This document shows, piece after piece, positions 1 to 34,291 of a DNA stretch of 34,426 nucleotides. Below the pieces are notes generated by a model, which saw nothing but the letters and a program-made list of their open reading frames with translations, did no database searches and had not been told where the DNA came from. Source of the DNA: Bdellovibrio sp. GTDB lineage: Bacteria; Bdellovibrionota; Bacteriovoracia; Bacteriovoracales; Bacteriovoracaceae. The translations under genes and the position numbers were made by a program. The stretch spans positions 1 to 34,426 of the forward strand of contig DZBG01000019.1 of assembly GCA_022729855.1 (NCBI GenBank), written 5' to 3'. Every line of letters begins with the position of its first letter. Position 1 is the stretch's first letter.

Positions 1-47
1 AAATCAGCAACTTAAATGTGGAGTTGCACTAGGAAAAATTTTTCGGG
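1..47 (+). repeat. Left copy of 47-bp terminal inverted repeat
   Basis: Bases 1-47 are the perfect reverse complement of 34374-34420. The repeat contains an internal palindrome, GAAAAATTTTTC, at 34-45. It may extend left of the window. The reading frame of the PPDK-type gene runs into this repeat and stops at bases 4-6, so the last residues of that protein are encoded by repeat sequence. This could be a dispersed repeat, the edge of a mobile element, or the point where two contig ends share the same graph node. Confidence 0.95.
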
Positions 48-1205
48 TTTTAAAATAGATAGGAAAATGCCCTGTCATGAGTTCGCAATCATCGAACTCT
101 TTCCAAAGATGAATCATAACGGGAACAGCGTTGATAAGAGTCTGAATGGTGAGTTTTGTTTTTAAAGGCCCAGAGTCTCCGTAATCTTTTAGAATACCTA
201 AGTCTTTATCAAAATCTTCTTCATTAAAATCAGGCAGTCTTGCCAGCCCCTCTTTAACAGCTTCAGCATTCCAGTACCCGCGGCCATAATAATAATACAT
301 CCACTGAATACTTTGCCCATTTGGAAGAAGTTTAATCCTTTCAAAATATCCACCCATTGAAGGTTGTAAGGCCAACTGATAGGCAGAATACATAAGTGGA
401 GTACAAACCCTGGCAGAAATCCCTCCATCTTTTAAATCTGAATCTGTGAGCTCTGGTACATCTTTTCGCGGTTTAAACTCTGTAATGGGTCTTGCTTGTA
501 GTATCCAAAGTTTATCGTTTTCATCAATGGCCCATTCTATATCTTGAGGAAGTCCATAATGGGCCTGAATACCAATGGCCGCTTTTATTAAATCTTCAAT
601 AGTCTTTGGACTTAACCTGGTGTCTTCATTATTTATTGTTTCTTGAAGTGTCTGTTTCGTATCTCGATGCGCACGATAAAGAGTCGGTGTCACATGTCCT
701 GATACCAGTCTCTCACCAAGACCTGCACAACACTCAATATAAATTTCTTCTTCTTTCCCCTCTAGTGGGTGAACTGTAAAAAGCACTCCCGATATTTTTG
801 ATTGAATTTGCTTTTGAATAAGCACACTCATCTTAGCAAGTTTTGGATCGATCCCTTTTTGGGAAAAATAGTCTGCCACCCTTGGATGATGGACAGATTG
901 AAAACAATCTTTGATTGATTTCAAGAGCAATTCTTCTGACGCAACTCCAAGATAAGTTTCATAGAGTCCCGCAAAACTTGCTCCCTCTAAGTCCTCTAAG
1001 GCACCGCTAGATCTTACGGCAACAGGAAAACCACCAATCTTTTGAATCGATTCAAGTAAGCCACTCTTATTCAACTGACTATCAGTAAGAACAAAACCTA
1101 AGGGAACCCAATGGAGTAAAGTTCAATTAAATTTTTGGCCTTATTGCCTAAGGACTCCAAAGATTCGATTTTCTCGGCCAACTCACTAAAGATAGAATAA
1201 TTCAT
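4..1205 (-). pseudogene. Broken PEP/pyruvate-binding (PPDK/PEP-synthase type) gene
   Basis: The frame from 1074 (TTG) to 4 encodes the ATP-grasp PEP/pyruvate-binding domain of phosphoenolpyruvate synthase and pyruvate phosphate dikinase. It shows GGFPVAVRSSGALEDLEGASFAG-like text and the late motif DIEWAIDENDKLWILQARPI, which is typical of this fold. The missing N-terminus lies just upstream in another frame: from ATG 1203-1205 it reads SLGNKAKNLIELYSIG, then hits a stop, while the main frame continues VPLGFVLTDSQLNKSG. A single lost base in the G run at 1107-1109 would join them. The C-terminal phosphohistidine and PEP-binding domains are absent, because the frame enters the terminal inverted repeat and ends with an unrelated tail. 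It is therefore both frameshifted and truncated. Whether the damage is biological or from assembly cannot be decided here. Confidence 0.75.
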
Positions 1206-1215
1206 ATGAATTATT
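1196..1215. promoter_or_regulatory. 20-bp perfect palindrome between divergent genes
   Basis: AATAATTCATATGAATTATT is a perfect palindrome centred between 1205 and 1206. It contains both apparent start codons: the leftward ATG of the PPDK-type gene (1203-1205) and the rightward ATG of the nucleotidyltransferase-like gene (1206-1208). Two real starts cannot abut without a promoter or ribosome site, so at least one start is probably wrong. The palindrome may be an operator for a dimeric regulator. Confidence 0.5.
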
Positions 1216-2222
1216 ATCGGAGTACAGTGCCAAATAATGAATTTTGTGGATTAATAAACTTGATGAAAAATTCTTTATTTCAGTCAGTATGTTTAGGCCT
1301 AGATACAGTTATCCCAAGGAGGATAACCAAAACTCTTTATTACCCGAGTTTTTTGATTTTTCAAATTTTGTGTAAATTTCATTTTTCCAAGAATCTTAAA
1401 CATACTTATTTAAGAAATAGCTTTTTTCTCAATTATTGTGTCTTTGGTCTTAGCGACTACGATTTTGGGATTGTCTTAAAAACAAGGGCCAGCGTTAAAG
1501 ACTGGAACTGTTTTTATCAAAACTTCAAACGATTGAAATTTATTTTCCCATTCTGGGGAGAAATTAATCTCTACTGTGAAGATGAGATTGATGACCTTGT
1601 CGCTTTCATCAATCCTATAGAACTGAAAAGAGATCCATATCTTTCAAATAAATTTAAACTTGAGGCTTCACCTGAAGAAAAGTTTGTTTTTCTTAGTAGA
1701 TCCTTATCGACTAATTTTCCGAATTGGAAATTTGAACAAAAAAAGAGATTTAAGTTCTCTACATATTTTGACCTTTGCCAAATGAAATACTCTTCAAAGA
1801 CAGATGTAAAAGAAATGTTAGAAAGTAATCTTTATGAGTTGCTACAAACACCTATTCAAAAAAATTATATACATTTTATTATCCCCTTCCAGAATCTTTT
1901 AAAAAACTCTCCGGATATTTTGTGGGAGCCATCAAGTTCTGAAGTAAAAGTTCTTTTTCCTCAGCACTATTTATGGTTTGAAAGAGAAGAAGGAAATGAA
2001 GAGTTTCTTGGAAGCTTATCTGAATCAGATAAGAGAGTACTTGTTGGACAATTAAACTGGGAGATTTGGGGTTTGATGACTCAACTCTACACTTTTGAAG
2101 GAAAAGATAGTTTTGTCATACACTTAAATAGAATAAAAAAAGTTTTTACAGAGCTGAAGCTCAACCCAATTCAAATCCAGAAGATCGAAAAATTCCTAGC
2201 GATTTATAATACTATTCAATAA
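1206..2222 (+). CDS. Nucleotidyltransferase-like protein of unknown substrate
   Basis: 338 residues. Residues 81-87 (GLSDYDF), followed by a hydrophobic GIVL, resemble the G-[GS]...D-x-D metal-binding hairpin of the pol-beta nucleotidyltransferase superfamily (GxSDxDL), with Asp84 and Asp86 as likely metal ligands. A strand around residues 117-123 (GEINLYCED) could give the third carboxylate. The remainder is mostly helical and not recognisable. No signal peptide is seen. The start at 1206 lies inside a palindrome and lacks a Shine-Dalgarno sequence. Met20 (1263) is an alternative that leaves room for a promoter and keeps the motif. The tail overlaps the end of the convergent radical SAM gene by 27 bases. 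Function assignment is tentative. Confidence 0.55.
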   Translation: MNYYRSTVPNNEFCGLINLMKNSLFQSVCLGLDTVIPRRITKTLYYPSFLIFQILCKFHFSKNLKHTYLRNSFFLNYCVFGLSDYDFGIVLKTRASVKDWNCFYQNFKRLKFIFPFWGEINLYCEDEIDDLVAFINPIELKRDPYLSNKFKLEASPEEKFVFLSRSLSTNFPNWKFEQKKRFKFSTYFDLCQMKYSSKTDVKEMLESNLYELLQTPIQKNYIHFIIPFQNLLKNSPDILWEPSSSEVKVLFPQHYLWFEREEGNEEFLGSLSESDKRVLVGQLNWEIWGLMTQLYTFEGKDSFVIHLNRIKKVFTELKLNPIQIQKIEKFLAIYNTIQ

Positions 2223-3998
2223 TACTGTTTGTTTTCCAGATAACTCTTTTTCACTTAACAAAACCATCGCAGCATCTTCTTCCTGGCTCCAATTCAGTTT
2301 GTGGTAGTTAATTAGCTTCGCAACGATCACTGCTAAGTAATCTTCCATATATGGCAAGTAGCGAAGTATATTACTTCTTAAAACAGGTTCATACTTATTG
2401 TGATCTTTTTGGCATAACCTGTTTATAAGTTCAAATCCGCCTAAGCGAGTCTTTTGATGAGAGAACCAACGCTTAATCCATTCCTCGTTTAAATTGTAAC
2501 CAATATAGTCGAGGTGTACCCCTAATATTGCCCATAAATTATACTCACCGGTGATCATTGTAGAAAAGACATAGTCTCTAATTTGTCTCTGCTTAGCTTC
2601 ATCCTCAATCCATGGTTCAACTTTCGCCCAGATAGAAGGCTCAAAGTCTTCAAACTTTGCATTCATCAGAATATCATGACCAGCTTGATACATATGCTTA
2701 ATATCATCAGGGCATACAAGTTCTTTTATATTTTTTCTGAATTTAAACTGAATAAGATACATAAAGATATCAACCAAACGTTCATTTTTAGTTTTATCAT
2801 CTTTAAAATTCACAGCTTTTTCGAAGTATTCACGTTCAAATCCATGAAAGCCATACTCATTCTTGTCTCCGGCCATATGAGAGTCAATATACTCCAAGGT
2901 TTCTAAATAATATTTTTCAAATATCTCTTTAGTCCAATCGAGGGCCAAAAAAGAAGGATAGAAAATTGGATAACTAACAATCGCAACCTGATCTTGATAT
3001 TCTGATTTTTGTTTATATTCATAAACTTTTTCAAAAAGTCTTTTGATATCAGGAAAGGCAAAAACATTTAATGTAGCAGTAAATCTAAAAAGTGAGCTTG
3101 GAAAACTATCAAATAGTAGATTGAGATTTTTTTCAAAAATATTTAATTTAAGGCCATAGCGTGCTAACTCGCCTCCACTTCCCCAGCCATCTAAACTTGT
3201 AAAGAACTGAAGACTCTTGTAATGCTCACGTGGAATAAGTTTCAATTTTTGAATAAACTTTTCCATTAATTCAACGGGAACACCTAGGTTAGAGTTGAAG
3301 GCTAGGTCTGCGTGTCCCATAGAATTAGTTTTTAACCAATCTAAAAATTTGTCCATCCACTTACTGATGAGAGGCTCTCCCCCAGTAAAACGCATCACCT
3401 GAAAAGTTTTATGATTTAATAAAAACCAATCCCAAAATGCTTTGGCATAAATATGATTTTCATTTTCGTCTAAAAACATATTTTCTAAATTTGTATCAAG
3501 CCAATTGTGATCTTGTGATAAACGATAACTACCAAATTTTTTTGATTCTTTTGCTAAAGATGATGAATTACTAGGTGAACAATAAGTACACATCATTTGA
3601 CATTTATTTCCAAAACTCACTTCAACATAAGTAGGAATAACATCATCGAGCGTTTGCTTTTCTTTATCAAAAAATGGCGCTGACCATTCAGCTGAAGATT
3701 TGAAATGGCGATCAGAGTGATGACCTTTAGCTTCGGCACTCCAACAAACATTGCAGCCAGCTATTTTTTTTCCTTCGAGCATCGCCTTACGTTCATCAAT
3801 AAGTACGGAGTCATTAAATAAATATTTTAAGTCTTTCTTAATAAGATCTGGATCAATTGTTTGTGGTCCACCAAGGCAACAATTATGCCTCTGGCCTACT
3901 TGAAGGTTGAAAAGAACTTGGGACCACTTTGCAGCACAGAAGGAGTCTGAAGTTTCCCGCAATTTTTTATCTGTTTCGTCGGCGCTTAATGTCGTCAT
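2196..3998 (-). CDS. Twitch-domain radical SAM protein
   Basis: 600 residues. The radical SAM cluster motif C133-x3-C137-x2-C140 (CQMMCTYC) follows a beta-strand VEVSFGNKC, and the SAM-contacting GGE lies at 206-208. Upstream, C21, C40-C41, C82 and C85 (GCNVCW) form a second cysteine set, as in twitch or SPASM radical SAM proteins that hold an auxiliary cluster. Here the extra set is N-terminal rather than C-terminal. The last third (about 400-600) has no motif I know. The family does peptide or small-molecule modification, but the substrate is unknown. The start is ATG 3996-3998 with a weak GGAAC upstream. It diverges from the second radical SAM gene across about 100-130 bases and converges with the nucleotidyltransferase-like gene. 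Confidence 0.8.
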   Translation of the reverse strand: MTTLSADETDKKLRETSDSFCAAKWSQVLFNLQVGQRHNCCLGGPQTIDPDLIKKDLKYLFNDSVLIDERKAMLEGKKIAGCNVCWSAEAKGHHSDRHFKSSAEWSAPFFDKEKQTLDDVIPTYVEVSFGNKCQMMCTYCSPSNSSSLAKESKKFGSYRLSQDHNWLDTNLENMFLDENENHIYAKAFWDWFLLNHKTFQVMRFTGGEPLISKWMDKFLDWLKTNSMGHADLAFNSNLGVPVELMEKFIQKLKLIPREHYKSLQFFTSLDGWGSGGELARYGLKLNIFEKNLNLLFDSFPSSLFRFTATLNVFAFPDIKRLFEKVYEYKQKSEYQDQVAIVSYPIFYPSFLALDWTKEIFEKYYLETLEYIDSHMAGDKNEYGFHGFEREYFEKAVNFKDDKTKNERLVDIFMYLIQFKFRKNIKELVCPDDIKHMYQAGHDILMNAKFEDFEPSIWAKVEPWIEDEAKQRQIRDYVFSTMITGEYNLWAILGVHLDYIGYNLNEEWIKRWFSHQKTRLGGFELINRLCQKDHNKYEPVLRSNILRYLPYMEDYLAVIVAKLINYHKLNWSQEEDAAMVLLSEKELSGKQTVLLNSIINR

Positions 3999-4027
3999 AT
4001 TTGTTCCATCAATTTTATTAAGAAATC

Positions 4028-4056
4028 TTGTCTTCGTATATTTTCAATATTAAATT
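4028..4056 (+). promoter_or_regulatory. Candidate sigma-70 promoter for second radical SAM gene
   Basis: TTGTCT (4028-4033), a 17-base spacer and TAAATT (4051-4056) fit a housekeeping promoter. It would start RNA near 4063, about 20 bases before a clear AGGAAAAGG ribosome site at 4084-4092. This is a prediction from sequence match only. Confidence 0.35.
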
Positions 4057-4128
4057 ATTCTATATGTTTCACAACTATGTAACAGGAAAAGGTTAAACAT
4101 CAAAAGACTCAATCTTATTTTACGCCTA

Positions 4129-5127
4129 TTGAAAGCTAATCTTAATATAAATAAACATCCTTTCAAATATTTTGTAGTAGTTACAAAGTCATGCACTTCT
4201 AGATGTATAAACTGTCATATCTGGAAGGAAAAGGTTGAGGACGAGCTTTCTATCGATGAATTTCGGCAAATGGCCAAAAAAGCAGGCAAAAATTTGTATT
4301 GGTTAAACCTGTCAGGTGGAGAACCAACCGATAGAGAAGATTTGACGCAAATTATTACCGAGTTTATTGATCACTGCCCTAATCTTCAGATTCTTAACTT
4401 CACGACAAATGGGTTAAATTATGAAAATTTAGAAACCGTTTTAGATTTCATCTCCAAAAGTAACATATCCACTGTCGCTATCAATATCAGCATCGATGGA
4501 CCTCCACAAACTCATAATCTAATTAGAGGGACAAAAGACGGTTTTGAGATGGCCATCAAGGCTTACAAGTTAATCTTAAAATATCCTAAGTTTAAATCTT
4601 CAGTGGCGATGACTTTGTTTCCTAATAATTTTAAACTAATCGGCCAAACGATTGAGGCAATTCAAGAACATGTGCCAAATTTTTCTTCAAAGAAATTACA
4701 CCTTAATTTCCCACACAACTCAGACCATTATTATGGGAATGCAGCTATTTCCTATGATCAACGAATAGACTTAGATTACATAAAACCATTTATGAAAAAA
4801 GGAAACTCCTTGTTCTCTCTTTCTCAATTCGTAGAAAAAATTTATCAAAAGAAGCTTTTCACTTTTCTCAAAACAAAAAGCATTCCCATGAGCTGCGCAG
4901 CTATTAAGTCGAATATTTATATTTCTGAGAAAGGAGATGTTTATCCCTGCACAATTTGGGATAAGAAGTTAGGATCGCTTAGAGACCACGAATTTCAGCT
5001 TGATAAAATTATTAATAGCCCACTAGCTGTTCAAACTCTTGAAGAAATAAGATTAAAGAAATGCCCGAATTGCTGGACTCCATGTGAGGCCTTTCCTTCA
5101 ATTATTACAAATTTAAAATCCATATAA
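4129..5127 (+). CDS. Radical SAM protein with SPASM-like C-terminus
   Basis: 332 residues from TTG 4129. The cluster motif C22-x3-C26-x2-C29 (CTSRCINC) and GGEP (63-66) define a radical SAM core. The C-terminus carries GDVYPC and KKCPNCWTPCEA, a SPASM/twitch-like set of cysteines for an auxiliary 4Fe-4S cluster. Such enzymes modify peptides or sugars or build cofactors; the substrate here is unknown. The TTG start has no ribosome site. The frame stays open upstream, and an ATC codon at 4099 sits 6 bases after AAAAGG (4087-4092). It would add IKRLNLILRLL, a natural-looking start for this family, so the true start may be 4099. The downstream GT-C-like gene overlaps by one base (TAATG), suggesting translational coupling. 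Confidence 0.85.
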   Translation: MKANLNINKHPFKYFVVVTKSCTSRCINCHIWKEKVEDELSIDEFRQMAKKAGKNLYWLNLSGGEPTDREDLTQIITEFIDHCPNLQILNFTTNGLNYENLETVLDFISKSNISTVAINISIDGPPQTHNLIRGTKDGFEMAIKAYKLILKYPKFKSSVAMTLFPNNFKLIGQTIEAIQEHVPNFSSKKLHLNFPHNSDHYYGNAAISYDQRIDLDYIKPFMKKGNSLFSLSQFVEKIYQKKLFTFLKTKSIPMSCAAIKSNIYISEKGDVYPCTIWDKKLGSLRDHEFQLDKIINSPLAVQTLEEIRLKKCPNCWTPCEAFPSIITNLKSI

Positions 5128-6695
5128 TGAATCGATTTTTATTCTGCTTCGTCATTTTAGTTTCATTTATTTACTCTTACGATATAAGAGATACATATGA
5201 CTTGCCCGTATTTGACGAAACATTATATGTACAAGGTAGATATAATGTTTTTACAGATTGGGGACCGCTCTATCAGTACTGCTACTATATTCTGAACAAA
5301 ATAACTAATTCCCGAATTGATAGCTTCTATATAATGCTCCCCTTGCTCAGTTTCATTCTTGTTCCACTTGCTATTTATTTTTTGTCACTTCGTTTCATAA
5401 AAGAGAAATCGACCTCGTGTATATTGGCGATTTGGAGCATGCTCGCACAATGGAACTTTCCTTCTGATCCGAAGATTCAAATTTTTAACTTTTGCCTTAT
5501 TTCTCTAGGATTTCTTGCTCGAGTCTCTAACTCCAAATTTTCATTTATCGGAAAATGTTTTTCATATTTTATTTTTTCGATGAGCATTTTTTGTCGAACT
5601 GATAATATTGTTATTTTAATTACAGTTCTTTGTTTTGATCTTTATTGGTATTTAAAAGAAAAGAAAATCAAAGAAAGTATATTAGCATTTGCTGTTCCTA
5701 CAATTACCTACATCTCATTTTTGTTTATTTTTGGATCACCATTCAGTCCAACACGTACATGGTATGCATTTATTGACCACTTTTCTTGGAAGAATCCAGA
5801 GTATTTTAGAGAACAAATTAATAATGGTGTTGGTATATATAACGCACTTAATGTTTTTTTCGATGGGGCCAGCTCAATTCCTGAGGCATTCATAAACAGA
5901 CCAATTGAAGTCACCCTCCACTTTTTTAAAAACTTACTAACACTCCCGAATTCCTTACTTAATAACTTCAAGTTTCTCTATCTCGGTCAATACTCCCTAC
6001 TCTTTTTCTTATTGCTCATTTTTATATTATTATCAAACGATAATTCAAAAATTAAACATCAAGAAAAGAAAAACTCATTTGAGTTTTATCTTTTCATTAC
6101 AGCAATTACACTTAAGGTATTCGTTACTGCAATATTACTCCAGGCGCTCCCTAAGTATATTTTTGAACTAAATATTATTATTCTTTTTTCTATTGCTTAT
6201 TTTGCTCCCACCATAAAAGAATCATTAATTTTAAAAACTAGAAATATAGCAACCCTCGTCTTTATTTTTTTATTAATCATAAGCCCTTTTCTACTTAAGC
6301 ACCCAGTCTACAAGCACCGCTTCCCCATAAACCTAACATTAGAAAAAACTCAGCAAATTATAAAAGATCGCCCAGTGAATCTAATATTGTGCAATGATGC
6401 ATTTCTAACTTGGACCAACAGCTCCATCCCTATGATTAATCTGTGGGCTGATCACAGACATGACGAACTAATCAAAAATGACCTCAAACTCTTTCTTAAC
6501 AAAATGAAAGTGGATTTGATAATAATTGAAGATATCCATCGTCACCTAACAGAATTACAAGGGTTTAAGCATCAGTGGCTCAACTTTGAGAACAATTGGG
6601 AAGACTATGGCTACGACCTATACTTTAGAGATCAAAACAATACGATCTCAATATATGTCGCGCGTCAAAAAGATCCCGTAACGTCTACTGAGTAA
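5127..6695 (+). CDS. Polytopic membrane protein, GT-C glycosyltransferase-like
   Basis: 522 residues rich in Phe, Ile and Leu, with roughly ten predicted membrane spans between residues 1 and about 400, then a soluble domain of about 120 residues. An acidic pair, D30-E31, follows the first span in PVFDETLYV. This is the place where GT-C lipid-sugar glycosyltransferases (PMT/ArnT type) carry their catalytic carboxylate. The C-terminal domain (NLILCNDAFLTW...LIIIED) looks like the periplasmic domain of such enzymes. It is coupled to the preceding radical SAM gene by a one-base overlap. Inference: it transfers a sugar from a polyprenyl carrier to a partner shared with that enzyme. Family assignment is tentative; the membrane nature is certain. 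Confidence 0.6.
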   Translation: MNRFLFCFVILVSFIYSYDIRDTYDLPVFDETLYVQGRYNVFTDWGPLYQYCYYILNKITNSRIDSFYIMLPLLSFILVPLAIYFLSLRFIKEKSTSCILAIWSMLAQWNFPSDPKIQIFNFCLISLGFLARVSNSKFSFIGKCFSYFIFSMSIFCRTDNIVILITVLCFDLYWYLKEKKIKESILAFAVPTITYISFLFIFGSPFSPTRTWYAFIDHFSWKNPEYFREQINNGVGIYNALNVFFDGASSIPEAFINRPIEVTLHFFKNLLTLPNSLLNNFKFLYLGQYSLLFFLLLIFILLSNDNSKIKHQEKKNSFEFYLFITAITLKVFVTAILLQALPKYIFELNIIILFSIAYFAPTIKESLILKTRNIATLVFIFLLIISPFLLKHPVYKHRFPINLTLEKTQQIIKDRPVNLILCNDAFLTWTNSSIPMINLWADHRHDELIKNDLKLFLNKMKVDLIIIEDIHRHLTELQGFKHQWLNFENNWEDYGYDLYFRDQNNTISIYVARQKDPVTSTE

Positions 6696-6802: not shown

Positions 6803-7156
6803 ATGTACAGTGTTGTTGAAATTAAAGGTCACCAGTACAAAGTTAATGCTGGGGACTTAATCGATGTTGAAAAAATCGACGCAGAAGTTGGAAAAACAGT
6901 TGATCTAGACCAAGTTCTTCTAGTTGGTGGTGAATCTACTCTTGTTGGTCTTCCAACAGTTAAAGGTGCAAAAGTTGTAGCTCAAGTTGTTCGTCAAGCA
7001 CGTACACGTAAGCTAATCGTTTTCACTAGAAAGCCAGGTTCATACCGTAAGAAAAACGGTCACCGTCAGCATTACACAGGTCTTCTTATCACTGAGATTC
7101 ATGATGGTAAGGGTGGCGTTGTTAAAGCTGAAGCTAAAGCAAAGAAAACAAAATAA
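6803..7156 (+). CDS. rplU: 50S ribosomal protein L21
   Basis: 117 residues. It starts MYSVVEIKGHQYKVNAGD and contains the conserved RKPGSYRKKNGHRQHYT segment of bacterial L21, which binds 23S rRNA in the large subunit. The length is slightly above the usual 103 because of an Ala/Lys-rich tail. A good AAGGAG ribosome site lies 5-6 bases upstream of the ATG. rpmA follows 29 bases later, the near-universal rplU-rpmA order. Expression is probably governed by the promoter and folded leader at 6698-6802. Confidence 0.97.
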   Translation: MYSVVEIKGHQYKVNAGDLIDVEKIDAEVGKTVDLDQVLLVGGESTLVGLPTVKGAKVVAQVVRQARTRKLIVFTRKPGSYRKKNGHRQHYTGLLITEIHDGKGGVVKAEAKAKKTK

Positions 7157-7185
7157 TTAAAAACTAAAGTTTAGGAGATACATAT

Positions 7186-7440
7186 ATGGCTCACAAGAAA
7201 TCGGGTGGTAGTACATCTAACGGTCGTGACTCTAACCCAAAAATGCGCGGTGTAAAAAAATTCGGTGGCGAAGTTGTTTCTACAGGAATGATTATCGTTC
7301 GTCAGAAAGGAACTAAGTTCCACCCAGGTACAAACGTAAAGATGGGTCGTGACTTCACGATCTATGCTATGTGCCCAGGTAACGTAAAATTTTCTTTCTA
7401 CAATAAATCGACAAAAATCATTTCGGTTATTCCAGCTTAA
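7186..7440 (+). CDS. rpmA: 50S ribosomal protein L27
   Basis: 84 residues starting [19 protein letters not shown], the flexible N-terminal arm of L27 that reaches toward the peptidyl transferase centre. It is followed by the [22 protein letters not shown] core. The length is typical. There is no Firmicutes-type cleavable extension. The ribosome site is TTTAGGAGATACATAT just before the ATG. A strong terminator closes the rplU-rpmA unit 30 bases downstream. Confidence 0.97.
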
Positions 7441-7442
7441 TT

Positions 7443-7456
7443 GATCTTTAAAGATC
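7443..7456. other. 14-bp perfect palindrome after rpmA
   Basis: GATCTTTAAAGATC directly follows the rpmA stop codon and precedes the terminator. It could form a small hairpin in the 3' untranslated RNA or bind a dimeric protein. No function is known. Confidence 0.4.
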
Positions 7457-7470
7457 TTTAGGATACAGAA

Positions 7471-7497
7471 GGGAGCAAAGTAATTTGCTCCCTTTTT
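7471..7497 (+). terminator. Intrinsic terminator after rpmA
   Basis: GGGAGCAAA (7471-7479), loop GTAA, TTTGCTCCC (7484-7492) and then five T residues: a 9-bp perfect stem with a U-tract. It separates ribosomal protein expression from obgE, which starts only 13 bases later. obgE must therefore depend on read-through or on a promoter within rpmA. Confidence 0.9.
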
Positions 7498-7510
7498 CAT
7501 TTTAGGCATT

Positions 7511-8548
7511 ATGAAATTTATCGACGAAGTTGAAATAGAAATTTACTCCGGAAATGGAGGCAACGGTGCTGTAAGCTACCGTCGCGAAAAGTATGTTGAG
7601 TTTGGTGGTCCAGATGGTGGCCCTGGTGGCATCGGTGGAAGTGTCTACTTTGTAGGAGACGAAAACCTTAACACTCTTATGCACTTTAGAGGCCCTAAAG
7701 ATTTTCATGCTGAAGATGGTGTGAAAGGTGGGACTTCTGGAATGAACGGGGCCAACGGTCAGGACCTCATGCTTAAGGTTCCAGTGGGGACTCTTGTTAC
7801 TAACCGTGAAACAAATGAACTCGTTGTTGATGTGACCGAACACGGACAAAGCTATCTTGTCCTTGAAGGCGGCCGTGGTGGACTTGGAAATGGAGCTTTT
7901 AAATCTTCAACTAACCAAGCTCCGACATATGCTCAAAAAGGTGAAGAGGGGCAACATCTCTCAGTTCATCTTGAATTAAAACTTTTAGCTGATATTGCTC
8001 TTGTTGGTTTTCCTAATGCTGGTAAATCAACTCTGATAAGTTCTATTTCTGCTGCTAGACCTAAAGTAGCTGACTACCCATTCACAACGCTTGAGCCTCA
8101 ACTAGGTGTTGTTCAAATGGGAGAGAGCACAGTTGTAGTCGCAGATATTCCAGGTCTTATTGAAGACGCCTCTGAAGGGAAGGGCCTAGGGGTTAAGTTT
8201 TTAAAACATATTGAACGTGCCTCAGCTCTCGTTCACTTAGTTGATTGCTCAATGTTTATCGAAGATTTCGAAGTAATTGAGGCCTATGCCACAATTCGCG
8301 CAGAACTTTTGAAATATAGCGAAAAGCTAGCAGCTAAAAAAGAAATCGTTTGTATTACAAAAATCGATGCGATGACTGAAGAGGAAATTGAACGTTTTCA
8401 AAAAGTATTAGAAGAACATATTGATAGAAAAGTCCTGCCTATTTCAGGAGTATCAGGACGAAATATAGAGACGCTCAAAAGTCTTATGTTAAGAACAAAA
8501 CAGACAATTGCAGCAGAAAATAAGGGTGAAGTTTATGGCGATGAATGA
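7511..8548 (+). CDS. obgE: GTPase ObgE/CgtA
   Basis: 345 residues. The glycine-rich OBG fold (1-158) begins MKFIDEVEIEIYSGNGGNGA and contains GGPDGGPGGIGGSV. The G domain has its P-loop GFPNAGKS at 166-173, switch I YPFTTLEP, G3 DIPG at 212-215, G4 TKID at 283-286 (Thr in place of the common Asn) and G5 SGVSG at 312-316. Obg couples GTP level to 50S assembly and stress responses and is essential in most bacteria. There is no C-terminal OCT domain. The position after rplU-rpmA is the usual one. A short AGG precedes the ATG, just after the rpmA terminator. The end overlaps rsfS by 14 bases. Confidence 0.96.
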   Translation: MKFIDEVEIEIYSGNGGNGAVSYRREKYVEFGGPDGGPGGIGGSVYFVGDENLNTLMHFRGPKDFHAEDGVKGGTSGMNGANGQDLMLKVPVGTLVTNRETNELVVDVTEHGQSYLVLEGGRGGLGNGAFKSSTNQAPTYAQKGEEGQHLSVHLELKLLADIALVGFPNAGKSTLISSISAARPKVADYPFTTLEPQLGVVQMGESTVVVADIPGLIEDASEGKGLGVKFLKHIERASALVHLVDCSMFIEDFEVIEAYATIRAELLKYSEKLAAKKEIVCITKIDAMTEEEIERFQKVLEEHIDRKVLPISGVSGRNIETLKSLMLRTKQTIAAENKGEVYGDE

Positions 8549-8996
8549 ATACGTACAAGAAGAAGCAGGTAAGATTTTTAATAATAAAACTTATGAGTTT
8601 CCAAAGAATCAAGCAATGGTTGCAGCTTGGATTGCGGCTCACTTTAAAGGTGAAGCACTAAAAATTTTTGATATGACTAAGCATAGTGCACTTTCTGATT
8701 GTTCAGTTCTTGCGACTGCTCAGAACGTGACTCAGGCCCGCGCTATGGCCGACGAAATTTCTGCTAACCTAAGACATTTAGGCGCTGAGATTTATTCATA
8801 CGAAGGTTATGAATCTGCTGACTGGATTCTTCTCGATTTCGGCGACACAATCGTTCATATTTTCCAAGTAGCGGCTCGTGATGTTTACGATCTTGATTTA
8901 GTTTATGCTAAAAATCCACAGATCACGATTCCTGAAGAGTTCTATTTTGGTAAAGCTGCTGAAGCTAAAAAAGACGATCTTAAAGGCTATTTCTAG
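8535..8996 (+). CDS. rsfS: Ribosomal silencing factor RsfS
   Basis: 153 residues from ATG 8535, chosen because AAGGGTGAAG sits just upstream; an earlier in-frame ATG at 8508 lies deep inside obgE and has no such site. The protein has the RsfS/Iojap core: LKIFDMTKHSALSDCSVLAT, a LRHLGAEIYSYEGYESADWILLDFGD region, then IVHIFQVAARDVYDLDLVY. RsfS binds ribosomal protein L14 and blocks subunit joining when nutrients are low. It overlaps obgE by 14 bases, and rlmH follows after one base, the common rsfS-rlmH pairing. Confidence 0.93.
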   Translation: MAMNEYVQEEAGKIFNNKTYEFPKNQAMVAAWIAAHFKGEALKIFDMTKHSALSDCSVLATAQNVTQARAMADEISANLRHLGAEIYSYEGYESADWILLDFGDTIVHIFQVAARDVYDLDLVYAKNPQITIPEEFYFGKAAEAKKDDLKGYF

Positions 8997-8997
8997 T

Positions 8998-9459
8998 ATG
9001 AGTCGAGGGCTTCATCTTATCGTAGTTGGAAAACTTAAAGATGGGGCCCTTGAGAGCATTGAATCCGACTATCTCAAACGCATCACCAATCCCGAATTAA
9101 TTATTCACGAAGTAAAAGCCTCAGCCGAAAACAAACAAGCCGAAGGTGAAGCTTTATTAAGAAAAATCAAAGACATTACCAAAGATGGTACGGCCCATAT
9201 TGTGGCACTTTCTGAATGGGGTAAAAAGCATACTTCAGTCAAGTTTAGTGAATGGCTCTGTCAACTTTTAGAGCGTTCTCCACGGGTAATCTTCCTAATC
9301 GCGGGGGCAGAAGGCTTTTCTGAAGAACTCTTAAGGGCGTGTCATGATAAAGTTTCACTCTCGGAGCTGACCTTTCCGCATAAAATAGCTAGAATACTCT
9401 TAGTAGAACAATTGTATCGGGCCCAAACAATCAGATCGGGGCACCCTTACCATAATTAG
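8998..9459 (+). CDS. rlmH: 23S rRNA pseudouridine-1915 N3-methyltransferase RlmH
   Basis: 153 residues from ATG 8998, one base after the rsfS stop. It is a small SPOUT-class methyltransferase with the knot motif VIFLIAGAEGF and the conserved C-terminal stretch LSELTFPHKIARILLVEQLYRA, ending in HPYHN. The tail usually reads G-x-PYH and enters the active site. It methylates pseudouridine 1915 in helix 69 of 23S rRNA on assembled 70S ribosomes. The length is normal. It sits between rsfS and gpmI and is probably cotranscribed. Confidence 0.95.
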   Translation: MSRGLHLIVVGKLKDGALESIESDYLKRITNPELIIHEVKASAENKQAEGEALLRKIKDITKDGTAHIVALSEWGKKHTSVKFSEWLCQLLERSPRVIFLIAGAEGFSEELLRACHDKVSLSELTFPHKIARILLVEQLYRAQTIRSGHPYHN

Positions 9460-28390: not shown

Positions 28391-31174
28391 ATGAAGAAAA
28401 TACTAACTTTTTTATCTAGTGAATCTGGGATGGCAATGCCAATGGTTATAACCATTGTCACGGCCGCAGTGAGTTCAATTGCCTATATAATTATAACCCT
28501 CCTTCCTCAACTTCAAGATGAACAGAAAAAAGCCCAGGATGCCATTAATTATAAAATATTTATTACTAGTTTAAATGATTACGTAATCCATGGGATGAGA
28601 GAAAAATGGTGTGTAAATAATATTTCAAATGCAGGTGGAGTCGTTGAAACTGACTTACTGCTTTCTAACGATTGTTCCTCAGCACAGACAATGGAACATA
28701 TTGTAACTTTTCCGGGAAATTTAGAGAGAATTTTATGGACGCCAGAAACTTATGGTCAAGATGAAGATCCAGCTGGAAAGAACACAATTATCGGACTTCA
28801 TAAAGCAGGACTTACACCTCCTGCTCCTGTCACACTTACAGCCGCTCAAATTAAAACAGATGAGATAAAACTTCAGCTCAGTCAGAATGTTCTCCTGAAT
28901 ATGACTGATGAACATCCTCTTTATATTATAACTAAAAATATTCGAAGCTGTGTTGAGTCTGTTGATATCAGTATAAAAAAAATGCCTGATTCAACTGGTG
29001 AGGAAGTTAAAATTGTCTTAAATATAGTAGGAAATATTTCTTCATCTAAAGTTTCATGTCTTGCTTCAATTAAAAATTTATCGTCGACTGCCTATTATAC
29101 TTTTTATCCAAGACGTCTTCATACCTACTCACTGATTAAGTATGATGATTTAAAAGTTAATATGTTCCACGAATACCATAGTCCTGTCTATGTTGCAGGA
29201 AACTTAGAACTTCCAGTGAATACATTTAATAAAGACATCTCTTCTATTTTTTATGATTCACTTACTTTAGGAATTTATAATTCTGGAGTCAGTGGCGGAA
29301 GATATGAGGCGGGAAAAATAAAAACCTCGGATGGAGACAATTATACATTTGAGGAACGAGGACATCCCTACTTATCAAAACAAGATAATTACCCTAGTTT
29401 TAGGGGGCTAATTGGTGGGCTAAGGCTTGATGCAAGTGAAGATAAAGGGATGTTTAATCTTTTTACTGCTGGAGCTGCATCCGCTTCAGATGTTGGCCAA
29501 TTGGAAGAATGTATTGAAGAAAATCAGGTCAAAACAAAACCAAGTTATACAGCCGGGACTGTTATAGCATATCAAAATCCATCAACAACAGGTGCTGCTA
29601 TTGGACTAAGAGTTGGCTTAACTAAAAAAAACCGATTTAAGCCTACAATTAATGCTCCTCAAGAAATAAACCCTACAGCAGACTCTCCAGCTAAAAAATT
29701 TCTTGTCAACGTGACTTCTACAAGTGGAACACATGAAATCGGTGATTTTAAAGTTATCATCAATAGTGATAATACTTATAAGTTCTCGACTGCTCCAAAT
29801 TCTCCAGCAGAACTCAAAGTTGATTTTTCAAAATATGGATTAACTGATGCTATTTTAGATCCTGCCATTGCCACTCTTAATGCAGTTATTACAAAAGATA
29901 ATTATCAAACAATTTTACCAATGGGGCATATTCTTAATGATTTACCTCAGATGACGACTTTTTTAAATAAAGCAAATGCGTTTAAACTTCTCTGTGAAGT
30001 TCCTTTAGCAGCCACAGCTGAATGTGATGACTTCCTCATTCCACAAACCTGTATTTCCCCTGCATGCCTTGATTACTCTTCTGCGAAGAACGCAATGATT
30101 ACGGCCCAGAATAATCTTAAAAACAAGATCCAACAAATAAAGACAAGTGTCTCTACTCCAGCAAAAATCATGTTCTCAGTAAGTGATGTCATTGATCCTG
30201 GAAATTCAAAAATTCGTATTAATCAAAAAGATTTGAATATTACTTTTTCATCTAACTGGTCAGATATCATTACAGTTATTAAACCTACTCTTAATAATGA
30301 TATGTTTATAGAATTCACTCCTTATCACTACAGCAACGATGATATCAAAACTGTCTTTTTCCACGACCTAGATAATCCGGGTAATGCCATGAGGTTAAAA
30401 AGACAGGATAACGGAAATAAAGTGAATTTTTTGACCTCTGGATGGAGGAACTCTTATGATAATGGAAATATCAATTTTGCAGATGAACCTGAAGATGATT
30501 TATATGAATTAACATGTCCAGATGGGATGAGTCTTGCTGACTGGAATCAGGATATGTCGAGCAATACAAACTTTGCTTGGAACTATGCGAATACTCCTCC
30601 TGGTGCAGAGGTTGATGGTGGTAGCCATGCGAACTTAGGTAGTATCACTTTCTCAAATGAAAATCCTCCTAACGAAGGCCATGCAAAATCTCATTCAAAA
30701 TCGGTGGTCGATAATTGTGTCGTGCCAGCAAATAGAGAATTTGTATTTGGATTTTATGCTTGTAAAAAATTAACAATCGCACCTGGTCGAACATCTGCAC
30801 TTTATATGATCGGAACCTTTATTGTTAATGAACTTGAAAACACTAATACCTCGCAACCTGTTCACTGGTATAACGTCTGGGATGCAAAATCAGCAGCCCT
30901 TGTACTCACTGAATTTAATAGAGTGGCCAAGCCAATTTGTGCCACACTTATTGGAAAGACATGGGTCGATATTATTAGCGATGATGCTATGAAAAATAAT
31001 CTTAAACAGTGTAGCCCAATGGATCTCGTTACAAACGGACCAAATAATTTTTCATGGACTACTGTGGATCCTGATATTGGTTTAATTAATGGTAATATCA
31101 TGACCTCACAAAAAGTATTACGTATGCAGCGATGGGTAATCAGAGAAGACTCACGATCGGATACAATCAGATGA
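28391..31174 (+). CDS. Oversized PilX/GspK-like prepilin-type protein
   Basis: 927 residues. The N-terminus is a short basic leader ending SSESG13, then M14AMPMVITIVTAAVSSIAYIIITLLP, a single hydrophobic helix. This matches a type IV prepilin/PilX layout, with cleavage after Gly13. Position +5 is Met rather than Glu, as in GspK, the largest tip pseudopilin of type II secretion, which also lacks Glu5. The remaining 880 residues are extracytoplasmic and beta-rich, with scattered cysteines and a long middle domain that I do not recognise. Usual PilX and GspK are 150-330 residues, so this is several-fold larger and could carry an adhesin or enzyme-like insert. It overlaps the next prepilin gene by 4 bases. 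Confidence 0.65.
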   Translation: MKKILTFLSSESGMAMPMVITIVTAAVSSIAYIIITLLPQLQDEQKKAQDAINYKIFITSLNDYVIHGMREKWCVNNISNAGGVVETDLLLSNDCSSAQTMEHIVTFPGNLERILWTPETYGQDEDPAGKNTIIGLHKAGLTPPAPVTLTAAQIKTDEIKLQLSQNVLLNMTDEHPLYIITKNIRSCVESVDISIKKMPDSTGEEVKIVLNIVGNISSSKVSCLASIKNLSSTAYYTFYPRRLHTYSLIKYDDLKVNMFHEYHSPVYVAGNLELPVNTFNKDISSIFYDSLTLGIYNSGVSGGRYEAGKIKTSDGDNYTFEERGHPYLSKQDNYPSFRGLIGGLRLDASEDKGMFNLFTAGAASASDVGQLEECIEENQVKTKPSYTAGTVIAYQNPSTTGAAIGLRVGLTKKNRFKPTINAPQEINPTADSPAKKFLVNVTSTSGTHEIGDFKVIINSDNTYKFSTAPNSPAELKVDFSKYGLTDAILDPAIATLNAVITKDNYQTILPMGHILNDLPQMTTFLNKANAFKLLCEVPLAATAECDDFLIPQTCISPACLDYSSAKNAMITAQNNLKNKIQQIKTSVSTPAKIMFSVSDVIDPGNSKIRINQKDLNITFSSNWSDIITVIKPTLNNDMFIEFTPYHYSNDDIKTVFFHDLDNPGNAMRLKRQDNGNKVNFLTSGWRNSYDNGNINFADEPEDDLYELTCPDGMSLADWNQDMSSNTNFAWNYANTPPGAEVDGGSHANLGSITFSNENPPNEGHAKSHSKSVVDNCVVPANREFVFGFYACKKLTIAPGRTSALYMIGTFIVNELENTNTSQPVHWYNVWDAKSAALVLTEFNRVAKPICATLIGKTWVDIISDDAMKNNLKQCSPMDLVTNGPNNFSWTTVDPDIGLINGNIMTSQKVLRMQRWVIREDSRSDTIR

Positions 31175-31653
31175 AAAAGATATTACACTTAATAAAAAAC
31201 CAACAAGGCTTTGGAATTTTAGAAACGATGATCGGTTTTGCGATTATGGGTGTTGGTACATATCTTATTCTACAAGGTCTAGATATGTTTGATAGCTCAA
31301 AAGGTCGTGTTGATAAAAGCATCAATCTCGAAAATACACTCTCGAATATTGTTGAAAGTGTTAAATCAAATATTATTTTAGAGAAAATAGATTTTCAAGC
31401 TGATACAAACTTCTTATCAAAATCAACTTACCAAGAAGTAAAAGATAGTCTAAAGCTTTGCTGGGTGAAAGATGGTGTTATCCCTCTTGATAATTACCCA
31501 AATTGCCCGGGAAGATTGGGCTATGTCGTAACACCTCTCAAAGTCGGAACTCTTACATTAAGAGGACTTTATAGAGTAACGGTGAGACTAACTCACGATG
31601 AAATCTATGCTGGAAGATTTAAGCAATATGAATTTATTGTGAAGGGCCCGTAA
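31171..31653 (+). CDS. PilV-like minor prepilin
   Basis: 160 residues from ATG 31171, which overlaps the preceding stop (ATGA). An upstream in-frame ATG at 31132 lies inside the previous gene and would add a leader that does not fit. The class III signal is KNQQG13|FGILETMIGFAIMGVGTYLIL with Glu at +5, cut by prepilin peptidase PilD. The small globular head contains two cysteines, CWVKDG...YPNC, likely a disulfide. It resembles PilV or GspI minor pilins. It is followed by the PilW-like gene with a one-base overlap (TAATG). Confidence 0.75.
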   Translation: MKKILHLIKNQQGFGILETMIGFAIMGVGTYLILQGLDMFDSSKGRVDKSINLENTLSNIVESVKSNIILEKIDFQADTNFLSKSTYQEVKDSLKLCWVKDGVIPLDNYPNCPGRLGYVVTPLKVGTLTLRGLYRVTVRLTHDEIYAGRFKQYEFIVKGP

Positions 31654-32786
31654 TGAAATTTACACAGATAAAAAATCAAAAAGGTGTGACTCTTGTTGAA
31701 ATGGTTGTCACCTTGGGAATCATCGGAGTACTTGGACTAATTCTAGTTAATGTTTCCAGATACGCTGATCGCCAAGTTAAAATTCAAATTGAAGATGTTC
31801 AGACAATGATCAATAAACTTGGTGCTTCAAAAATTATGACAAGAGATTTGGCCAATGCAAATCTTAGCTTCAATTATATCCATTTAGCTGATGACTTAGA
31901 CCCAGCAACTCCTAGACCATTTTTTGTATTCGCCAAAAATGAATATTGCCAAGAATCAGCTTCAAATGTTTGCAGGAGAGAATACAAACTAGAGATTCCA
32001 ACAGGACAAACTGTCTCTAAGCCATTTTATGCGATTGTTATTCGTGGCTATAATAATGAATTATTAAAATTTCCTCGTTCAGTTGAAAAGGATGTCTTTA
32101 CCTCATCTGCTCCAATTGTTTACAACGGTCTTAATGATCCTACTGATCCTGTTAAGAATATTGAAAAGTCTAATATGCCTGACTCACCTTGGATGGCAGA
32201 TAGACTGATGATGCTTACATCAAACAATGACTATTTTGATTGCTACAATAAAATTGCGACAATGACTGATACTACAAGCTGTCCAATAACTTGCACTATT
32301 CCTGGGACATGTAATTTCGTAGCCAAACGTGAATTAAAACTTTTAGGTATTGTTAAAGCAGATTTAAAAGACCTTAACTTTCACACAGTATCAATGAGAC
32401 CTGACCTGCTTAAGAAAAACTATCGTATTTGTAATTTGAAAGAAGACATGACTTGCTCAAGCACGATTAATTTTCCATCAGGTGTTGTGACCTCTAAGAC
32501 ACTCTTTGAGAAGATGCCATTTATTCCAGGACAAGATAATGGGGCTACACTTTCACCAGTCGAACTTGTTCGCTATCACCTTGAGCGTCCCACAGCTAGT
32601 TCTCCAGACCATCAAATTCGATTATTTAGATCTATGGCAAGTTTATCTGGCGGTACACTTTCATTTGAAAGGGCCCATATCTTAATGACAGGTGTTCAAA
32701 GCATTGTTTTTACAAGGACCAATATCTCGAATCCAACCATCGAGTACAAAATTAATAAAGTCAGACTACAAAAAAGTATAAAATAA
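31653..32786 (+). CDS. PilW-like minor prepilin
   Basis: 377 residues. The class III signal is IKNQKG11|VTLVEMVVTLGIIGVLGLILV with Glu at +5, a textbook prepilin. The head domain of about 340 residues is PilW/GspJ-sized, with cysteine pairs in CQESASNVC and SCPITCTIPGTC and a later CNLKEDMTC. It would sit with the PilV-like and oversized PilX-like proteins in a tip complex. It starts one base into the preceding stop and is 38 bases upstream of the EF-hand gene. Confidence 0.78.
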   Translation: MKFTQIKNQKGVTLVEMVVTLGIIGVLGLILVNVSRYADRQVKIQIEDVQTMINKLGASKIMTRDLANANLSFNYIHLADDLDPATPRPFFVFAKNEYCQESASNVCRREYKLEIPTGQTVSKPFYAIVIRGYNNELLKFPRSVEKDVFTSSAPIVYNGLNDPTDPVKNIEKSNMPDSPWMADRLMMLTSNNDYFDCYNKIATMTDTTSCPITCTIPGTCNFVAKRELKLLGIVKADLKDLNFHTVSMRPDLLKKNYRICNLKEDMTCSSTINFPSGVVTSKTLFEKMPFIPGQDNGATLSPVELVRYHLERPTASSPDHQIRLFRSMASLSGGTLSFERAHILMTGVQSIVFTRTNISNPTIEYKINKVRLQKSIK

Positions 32787-32824
32787 TAAAAAGAAGAGTT
32801 GTTATCCCTAAGGGGGGAAAGAGT

Positions 32825-34291
32825 ATGAAAAAATTAATCTGTTTGTCATTTATTGCACTGGCCACACAAGTAGCTCTTGCCCAATTTACTGTAGCCCCTT
32901 TCGGGTCAGCCGGAGCAGGAGCCCCACCAGTTGGAGAAAGTAGAGTTAGTAAGTGTGGAGCTCAAGGATGTTTAGAAGTTAAAGTTCAACCTTATTGTTT
33001 TGGTACAAACCTTAGGGCCTATAATACTGATAATCAGCTTCGACCAAATGAAAATGTGACTATGAATATTGAATTTGCTGATGCTGCTGATTCATCAAAA
33101 AAAGATATTTTTAAAGTTGTATTCCCAGCAGGAGTAACATTTCCAAGCGATGGGATCAAAACTGAATGTTCTGTCATTGACCCTAATGCATCTGGCGCCA
33201 TCAGAAATATTAAATGCTTAGTCCCATCAGCTGGGGGCGAGATTAATTATAAAATTACAAACTGGAAAGTAGCGAAAAATCCTTCATGTTTTGCAAATGG
33301 AGGAAGTCATGGTCAAGAGTATTGCGACTATGCAGCCGTGCAAACAGATGCTGTCATTCAATCTTCATCAGCAGCTGACTCGAATATTAAATGTCTTTAT
33401 AAGTTTAGCCCTCAGTACAAAATTATCCCCAACTCTGTAAAATGTGTATTTCCTTCACAGTCTCCAGACTATAGCTCTATTGTAAAAGTTTACGACTCTG
33501 CTAATAATGATATTTCTTCTTCAGTGAGCATGAAATCGTTTGTGAATAATATTAACTTTGTATTTTCTCAATCTATGGCATCAAGAAGTAAACCACAGAT
33601 GGTTAAGCATGGTGAACCTGTAACAGCACCGGCTCCTTCTCATAAAATTTCTTATATGCAAGGAACAAGAAATATTACTTCGGTAATCGAAAGTGAAAAA
33701 TTTGATGAAGCGAATGCTAATAATTCATTCACATCAATTGTTAAATTCCCAGGACAAGAAGGATTTTGTGGAGGGTTCTACTCTCCTCTCATGCTTTTCT
33801 TTGATGATAAGCTACCACAATTTAATGGTGTCTCACTTTTCCCACTCTATGGTTCAAAAGAAGGTTCAAGAGTAAACTGGCCAGAAAAAGATGCTCCAGG
33901 ATATTTCTTAGCTAAGCTAGAAAAAGTTTCTGATGAAATTTCTTCTCACACTCAACTTTTTGGAAAAGACGCAAAATTTCAAAATGGATTTGAAGCTCTT
34001 GCTGCGCACGATTCAAATAAAGATGGTGTCATTGACTCTCGCGACCCAATCTTTAAATCTCTATTTCTTTGGAGAGATACAAACAGTAATGGGCACTCAG
34101 AAGAAGGAGAGATCGTTTCTCTTAAATCAAAAGGTGTTCAATCAATCGACCTAAAATACAGCACTCGTGATGTGACAAAATTCGATTCTAGAGCACGCGC
34201 TCGTGAAAAGAGTAAATTTCTTTTTAAAAATAAAAAAGGCAAGATTGTTAAGAGTAATATCTTCGATGTTTGGCTCTCACCAATAGATTAA
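32825..34291 (+). CDS. Secreted protein with C-terminal EF-hand calcium loops
   Basis: 488 residues. The signal peptide MKKLICLSFIALATQVALA is cut before Gln20. The middle (residues 30-370) is unassigned, with cysteines in SKCGAQGC and CYDYA-like spacing. The C-terminus has two EF-hand loops, D396-N398-D400-G401-D404-D407 (DSNKDGVIDSRD) and D418-N420-N422-G423-E426-E429 (DTNSNGHSEEGE). The sequence around them, FEALAAHDSNKDG..WRDTNSNG..SLKSKGVQSIDL, is the calcium module often seen in RTX and dockerin-like secreted proteins. GGGGGGAAAGAGT precedes the ATG. It is the last gene of the prepilin operon and may be a pilus tip or secreted factor comparable in position to PilY1. Confidence 0.72.
   Translation: MKKLICLSFIALATQVALAQFTVAPFGSAGAGAPPVGESRVSKCGAQGCLEVKVQPYCFGTNLRAYNTDNQLRPNENVTMNIEFADAADSSKKDIFKVVFPAGVTFPSDGIKTECSVIDPNASGAIRNIKCLVPSAGGEINYKITNWKVAKNPSCFANGGSHGQEYCDYAAVQTDAVIQSSSAADSNIKCLYKFSPQYKIIPNSVKCVFPSQSPDYSSIVKVYDSANNDISSSVSMKSFVNNINFVFSQSMASRSKPQMVKHGEPVTAPAPSHKISYMQGTRNITSVIESEKFDEANANNSFTSIVKFPGQEGFCGGFYSPLMLFFDDKLPQFNGVSLFPLYGSKEGSRVNWPEKDAPGYFLAKLEKVSDEISSHTQLFGKDAKFQNGFEALAAHDSNKDGVIDSRDPIFKSLFLWRDTNSNGHSEEGEIVSLKSKGVQSIDLKYSTRDVTKFDSRARAREKSKFLFKNKKGKIVKSNIFDVWLSPID

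Follow-up and report, generated by a model that had tools for sequence, protein, structure and literature searches.

Two radical SAM gene modules beside the rplU-obgE block of a Bdellovibrio sp. genome, and their possible part in cell-envelope glycan chemistry

Genes at the locus

The window, that is the whole stretch of 34,426 nucleotides analysed here, corresponds to bases 1-34426 of contig C146 in a draft genome of 2.8 Mb. Its left edge carries a PPDK-like fragment on the minus strand (4..1074), which matches the ATP-grasp domain PPDK_N (PF01326, 182.7 bits). Then follow the two genes that we call module 1: one on the plus strand (1206..2222) for a nucleotidyltransferase-like (NTase-like) protein of 338 aa with a conserved SDxD...E set, and one on the minus strand (2196..3998) for a 600-aa radical SAM enzyme with an N-terminal twitch domain (NF033640, 232 bits). 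Module 2, on the plus strand, is made of a 332-aa radical SAM/SPASM enzyme (4129..5127), with PF04055 and PF13186 over cut-off, and of a GT-C-like polytopic membrane protein of 522 aa (5127..6695), which bears a DE motif and whose gene overlaps that of the enzyme. The region is bordered by a core block, rplU, rpmA, obgE, rsfS and rlmH (6803..9459, plus strand), these five names being given by synteny and sequence, not by family search. An earlier note on this DNA had claimed two different radical SAM enzymes beside a polytopic protein, with NTase-like and PPDK-like genes nearby, and all of these open reading frames are indeed in place. Read by eye, the last part of the window (28391-34291) holds a run of large genes whose products have pilin-like N-termini, together with one for an exported protein.

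Similarity between the PPDK-like stretch and a relative of 767 aa spans 49-1107, past the first start codon upstream. Since the similarity passes this codon and the gene breaks off at the contig edge, the gene is incomplete in the window, by assembly or in fact. The C-terminal part, where a PEP-utilizers domain would be expected, lies outside the window, which ends there. The relatives in genomes G004 (805 aa) and G061 (767 aa), located at the same place, have PPDK_N near the start and PEP-utilizers at the end.

In open-licence literature, searched by titles and abstract openings and with most subscription journals outside its scope, nothing was found on these gene sets.

The radical SAM/SPASM enzyme and its membrane protein

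The 332-aa protein matched PF04055 with 55 bits and the SPASM domain PF13186 with 29.2 bits (cut-off 21.5), both over the gathering score. Cysteines C256, C274, C312, C315 and C319 were invariant in the 5 members aligned, in agreement with the C-terminal set that had been claimed for this second radical SAM enzyme. Among the 25 NCBIfam models listed, of 56 matched, none was reached at its cut-off, the best being TIGR04053 (58.9 versus 395). In the PDB, the best sequence match was the peptide maturase SkfB; the profile also matched cytosylglucuronate decarboxylase (7vob), weakly (E 3e-6). AviX12 and NeoN are radical SAM enzymes acting on sugars. With sugar-acting enzymes such as 7vob the 332-aa enzyme shares the radical SAM core and, through its wider relatives, a glycan context, but the similarity itself is only weak.

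A scan of named genomes with the five-member alignment gave 251 relatives, the best 80 of which were examined. The signature peptide of the family is [NQH]CW[TS]PC[ED]A, and the nearest named relatives are found in Bacteriovoracaceae and Pseudobdellovibrio MAGs. In a tree of 84 rows, which has long branches, the window's enzyme grouped with those of loci L097, L096 and L095 (100/95), inside a clade of 31 rows (100/99). Two records seem misplaced: the enzyme of L120, recorded as Klebsiella pneumoniae, clusters with rows of Binatia and Myxococcota; the contig of L098, recorded as Lysobacteraceae, carries the same gene as a contig of G123, which belongs to the window's phylum. Both are probably mislabelled MAGs.

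Many of these relatives had genes related to sugar transfer nearby, as counted from six-frame open reading frames and profiles. A GT2, a GT9, a carbamoyltransferase or a member of GTC5, a GT-C family, was present within ~6 kb in 71 of the 80 loci. The nine others are L096, L097, L108, L109, L130, L134, L143, L169 and L170, several of which sit near contig ends. GT2, carbamoyltransferase and GTC5 occurred all together in 26 of the 80 loci, namely 17 of Verrucomicrobiota plus L098-L102, L107, L136, L140 and L168; with 17 from a single phylum, these full cassettes are not independent of each other. The neighbour profiles were built from the same 80 loci. They were also applied to 20 control loci containing obgE, which span 6.7-15 kb, belong without exception to the window's family and offset this circularity only partly. 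GT2 was found there once, an epimerase three times and a methyltransferase once, and no GT9, carbamoyltransferase or GTC5 was detected. Within the 31-row clade, a carbamoyltransferase was nearby in 22, GTC5 in 24 and GT2 in 23 of the 30 rows other than the window's, the enzymes beside GT9 genes being located in another part of the tree.

A polytopic protein was directly adjacent to the enzyme, on the same strand, in 38 of the 80 loci: 21 with a GTC5 member, 3 with only the kind of protein that lies downstream in the Opitutae, and 14 with others. The GTC5 family is PMT_2-like, as PF13231 matched each of the 8 members scanned with an E-value of 0.1 or better and the first of them passed its cut-off with 51 bits. 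One other directly adjacent protein, in L107, also passed the PF13231 cut-off, and the GTC5 member of L115, an Opitutae-type locus, remained under it (22.3 versus 26.1). The protein directly downstream in Opitutae-type loci gave a weak spermine-synthase match only. In L115 (1348-5459) and similar Opitutae loci, genes resembling minor pilins by eye are placed directly upstream of a cassette of GT2, carbamoyltransferase, GT-C and radical SAM genes; the larger of these in L115 had no Pfam match.

None of GT2, carbamoyltransferase and GTC5 was found beside the window's own enzyme, nor in the stretches examined of L096 and L097. L095 has a carbamoyltransferase only, ~7 kb off, and the single carbamoyltransferase of the window's genome is on contig C144. 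A glycan setting is nevertheless well supported for the wider family, and what we had not expected is how widely this family accompanies GT2, carbamoyltransferase and GT-C genes. Because many of its relatives adjoin sugar-transfer genes, the radical SAM/SPASM enzyme probably has a part in the synthesis of unusual sugars of the cell surface.

Its stop codon shares one base with the start codon (ATG) of the 522-aa gene in the window, and the same overlap is seen in L095, as expected from the translational coupling that the earlier note had reported; the distance between the two genes is 9 bases in L097 and 0 in L098. A simple scan gave 7 strongly hydrophobic segments for the 522-aa protein. The DE motif following the first span also held, D30-E31 being invariant in 4 of 4 family members, and the GTC5 family has a similar pair, D85 and E86, in 8 of 8. 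The family is narrow. Matches were found in 5 of the 368 genomes of the phylum, its own included, the fifth being short and weak, and iteration inside the loci gave four distinct proteins and none beyond. It adjoins the same radical SAM enzyme in G082 and G004. In G049 a member and the closest twitch match are ~14 kb apart, and a search of that genome for a relative of the radical SAM/SPASM enzyme found none.

The GT-C-like label of the earlier description stays putative. The protein is polytopic and has the DE motif, but no Pfam family was matched at E up to 1, and hence neither PF13231 nor PF02366. Its family profile matched that of GTC5 weakly (34% probability) and that of another adjacent protein set not at all; a PDB search with the four-member profile gave chance-level matches only. 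An AlphaFold2 model made from a 3-sequence alignment was poor (pLDDT 41.9). Foldseek found nothing for it at E 0.001 or better, and a C-mannosyltransferase of GT-C type that ranked eighth (E 1.8) was given no weight. The structure prediction by which the earlier note had wanted a GT-C fold to be judged thus speaks neither for nor against it. Compared to the PMT/ArnT-type GT-C glycosyltransferases (PF13231), the protein is similarly polytopic with DE after the first segment, and the wider relatives of its radical SAM partner have PMT_2-type neighbours, but it lacks the PF13231 match itself and its family was found in five genomes, one with a weak match.

Alternatively, the 522-aa protein could be a flippase, a ligase or a transporter for the product rather than a glycosyltransferase, as the missing Pfam match, the poor structure model and the weak profile match to PMT_2-type proteins would allow. 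We regard this as improbable, with perhaps a quarter of the weight on its side, given that the D-E pair after the first segment is kept in 4 of 4 members, as in the PMT_2-like GTC5, and that the gene adjoins a radical SAM enzyme of the clade where 24 of the 30 other rows have GTC5 nearby.

The twitch enzyme and its nucleotidyltransferase-like partner

The 600-aa protein matched NF033640 (twitch domain-containing radical SAM protein; curated cut-off 170 bits) over residues 17-415, with 232 bits and an E-value of 1.3e-68. It is the sole match over cut-off in its genome, and many relatives have several matches to the family. C21, C40, C82 and C85, together with the core C133-C137-C140, were invariant in all 9 aligned members of the family. 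Five auxiliary N-terminal cysteines had been proposed earlier; these four stand, and the fifth, C41, is present but not conserved among the 9 members, for which reason we take the N-terminal ligand set to consist of four cysteines. With its score over the cut-off, this four-cysteine set and its CX3CX2C core, the enzyme resembles the N_Twi_rSAM proteins of NF033640; it differs from them by a C-terminal extension of ~150 aa. Its best two relatives, in L002 and L003, scored 266 and 265 bits respectively for NF033640. Both (L002:1429-4269, L003:1282-4062) are longer than 900 aa in the stretches examined, with several hundred C-terminal residues more than the 600-aa enzyme, and the long C-terminal part of the L003 protein matched no Pfam family at cut-off.

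In the NTase-like protein, S83, D84, D86 and E119 were invariant in 10 of 10 members. Its Pfam scan gave no match, and its profile matched PDB entry 1ylq with an E-value of 0.001. The structure model was middling (mean pLDDT 57), with a predicted mixed helix-strand core, and its top Foldseek rows were AAD(9) and AadA, weak matches with E-values of 0.033 and worse and a TM-score of ~0.2 for AAD(9). We consider it a putative nucleotidyltransferase on account of the SDxD...E set, the PDB profile match and this middling model. It is like the small Pol-beta-like nucleotidyltransferases (AAD(9), AadA, AF0614) in the motif and the predicted core, but it is linked to twitch radical SAM enzymes, and the fold match is weak.

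This linkage was frequent. Among 28 other genomes that carry a match to the NTase-like protein, this match was within 10 kb of one to the N-terminal-twitch family in 21, a raw count to be read without a chance expectation, and within 500 bp of it in 9. For the seven genomes with none within 10 kb, four had none on that contig and three had one 11-40 kb off. In genome G069 (L059:975-3227) the two are naturally fused in one protein of 750 aa, whose second part scored 226 bits for NF033640. The twitch radical SAM enzyme and the NTase-like protein are thus a recurring pair, fused once. Several relatives have the NTase-like gene beside GT4, a gene of ~330 aa, an S26-peptidase-like gene (under cut-off) and ABC-2 exporter genes, and clusters related to module 1 also hold DegT genes. 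In G049, eight radical SAM genes related to each other and one NTase-like gene form an array beside rplU (L078:4151-16147).

Interpretation of the two modules

We place about even confidence in the view that the locus consists of two adjoining cell-envelope glycan modules beside a housekeeping block, in which, most likely, an envelope sugar linked to a lipid would be tailored by radical chemistry and then transferred outside the inner membrane. Next to the families, cysteines, gene overlap and recurring pairs and glycan neighbours described above, we infer the following substrates, chemistry and order of steps, with the window's own membrane protein taken as a putative GT-C enzyme. In module 2, the radical SAM/SPASM enzyme would use a 5'-deoxyadenosyl radical to change a sugar carbon, by epimerisation, dehydrogenation or deoxygenation, on a sugar linked to a nucleotide or to polyprenyl phosphate. 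The co-translated GT-C-like protein would then move the sugar from polyprenyl phosphate to an acceptor on the outer side of the inner membrane. In the wider relatives the route may be completed by the carbamoyltransferase and by the GT2, which is perhaps similar to dolichol-phosphate-mannose synthase (DPM type). In module 1, the twitch enzyme and the NTase-like protein would have a substrate in common, probably a building block of a surface glycan, which the NTase-like protein may activate or cap.

Several observations weigh against this two-module glycan explanation. The window, L096 and L097 lack the GT2, carbamoyltransferase and GTC5 neighbours, the genome's carbamoyltransferase being on another contig and that of L095 ~7 kb away; SkfB, the best PDB match of the radical SAM/SPASM enzyme, is a peptide maturase. 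In G049 the 522-aa family is present but no relative of its radical SAM partner was found, and the 522-aa protein combines no Pfam match with a GTC5 profile probability of 34% and a poor model. The earlier note had proposed a pathway for a modified peptide or a surface glycan. The glycan half gains from the wider neighbours of the radical SAM/SPASM enzyme; the peptide half finds no support in the window.

In our view the modules are two separable units of envelope chemistry, which may be combined or occur singly, and not a single pathway. Both are present within ~8 kb in G004 (L076), on either side of rplU-rpmA-obgE. They are also within ~10 kb of each other in G026 (L080), with a GDP-mannose dehydratase, a GT2, a DegT and a PMT_2 protein over cut-off, the membrane proteins of that genome not belonging to the 522-aa family. 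In other genomes, as far as the examined stretches reach, one module is found without the other. The total lack of conserved neighbours that the earlier note had named as counting against its proposal was not what we observed, since neighbours are conserved in some relatives; they are conserved as two modules, not as the four-gene set that it had suggested looking for.

The two modules might also be unrelated, the region upstream of rplU-obgE being an exchange region that collects unrelated envelope genes. In the stretches examined of L075/L097 and L098-L102, module 2 is present and module 1 is not, and G049 has its array of twitch-type genes at the same place. Moreover, rplU, rpmA and obgE were together in 19 of 20 other loci (L206 has obgE alone), and the window's upstream genes were not found upstream of this block in 20 other relatives at E 1e-6, with only ~500 bases upstream in L187. 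The co-occurrence in G004 and G026 argues against such chance assembly, the cluster and obgE of G026 being on different contigs, and we estimate that this explanation has roughly one chance in four.

Slightly less probable, yet the main rival for module 1, is a pathway for a ribosomally made and modified peptide or protein, with PqqD-like recognition, a twitch maturase, an S26-like peptidase and an ABC exporter. A PqqD-like protein is indeed located within the related clusters L083, L084, L088, L090, L091 and L093; the one of L091, the only one scanned, matched PF05402 with 47.8 bits and is directly beside an N-terminal-twitch enzyme of 312 bits. Other genes of related clusters code for an ABC-2 exporter and for an S26-peptidase-like protein, which scored 20.5 bits and so stayed below its cut-off of 22.9. 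Furthermore, eight related loci encode a protein of ~150 aa with an S74 (endosialidase-chaperone) domain and a strongly conserved N-terminus (L083:11965-12755, L087:6389-6844, L088:5914-6756, L089:6891-7340, L090:14100-14874, L091:14594-15514, L092:1536-1991, L093:6388-7249). The S74 match was obtained in 3 of 3 scanned, a PqqD-like protein is in the same cluster for 5 of the 8, and this S74 protein is possibly a radical-SAM-modified substrate. However, no PqqD-like, S74, S26-like or ABC-2 exporter gene is near module 1 in the window. The genome has a single PqqD-like match over cut-off, located on contig C121 and thus away from module 1, and of the S74 protein the S74 part alone (residues 44-146) had a match in this genome (E 7.5e-4). 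The clusters with PqqD-like proteins also contain GT4 and DegT genes, and may for this reason be glycan clusters too.

A single four-gene pathway including PPDK would be in keeping with the common place of the PPDK, twitch and NTase-like genes upstream of rplU in G004 and G061. It was rejected as leading view because the window's copy is incomplete and because, of the 9 further genomes in which the PPDK-like gene has a close relative (E < 1e-30), 6 had no N-terminal-twitch match. PPDK is probably a neighbour incidental to both modules. A phage origin was discarded as well, the PHROGs matches being to general radical SAM families only, plus one weak nucleotide-metabolism family.

Returning to the two glycan modules, we tentatively propose, with distinctly less confidence than in the modules themselves, that module 2 is the reduced form, with its own GT-C-like family, of a cassette spread over several phyla. 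These are Verrucomicrobiota, Bdellovibrionota, Pseudomonadota, Dadabacteria and Chlorobiota, to which a DPANN archaeon is added according to its record title. In the complete cassette, the radical SAM/SPASM enzyme would edit a polyprenyl-phosphate-linked sugar supplied by the DPM-type GT2, the carbamoyltransferase would decorate it and the GT-C protein would transfer it. Pilins may be the acceptor, because the Opitutae cassette lies directly behind the minor-pilin-like genes.

If this is true, radical SAM enzymes working on lipid-linked sugars in a GT-C route would give access to a chemistry that is hard for ordinary sugar-nucleotide enzymes, and the recurring gene set supplies a defined enzyme, a list of partners and a signature peptide with which to find and test that route. 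As to module 1, the pairing of twitch enzyme and NTase-like protein, with its natural fusion, offers a system of two proteins, open to assay, for a family on which our searches returned no known reaction.
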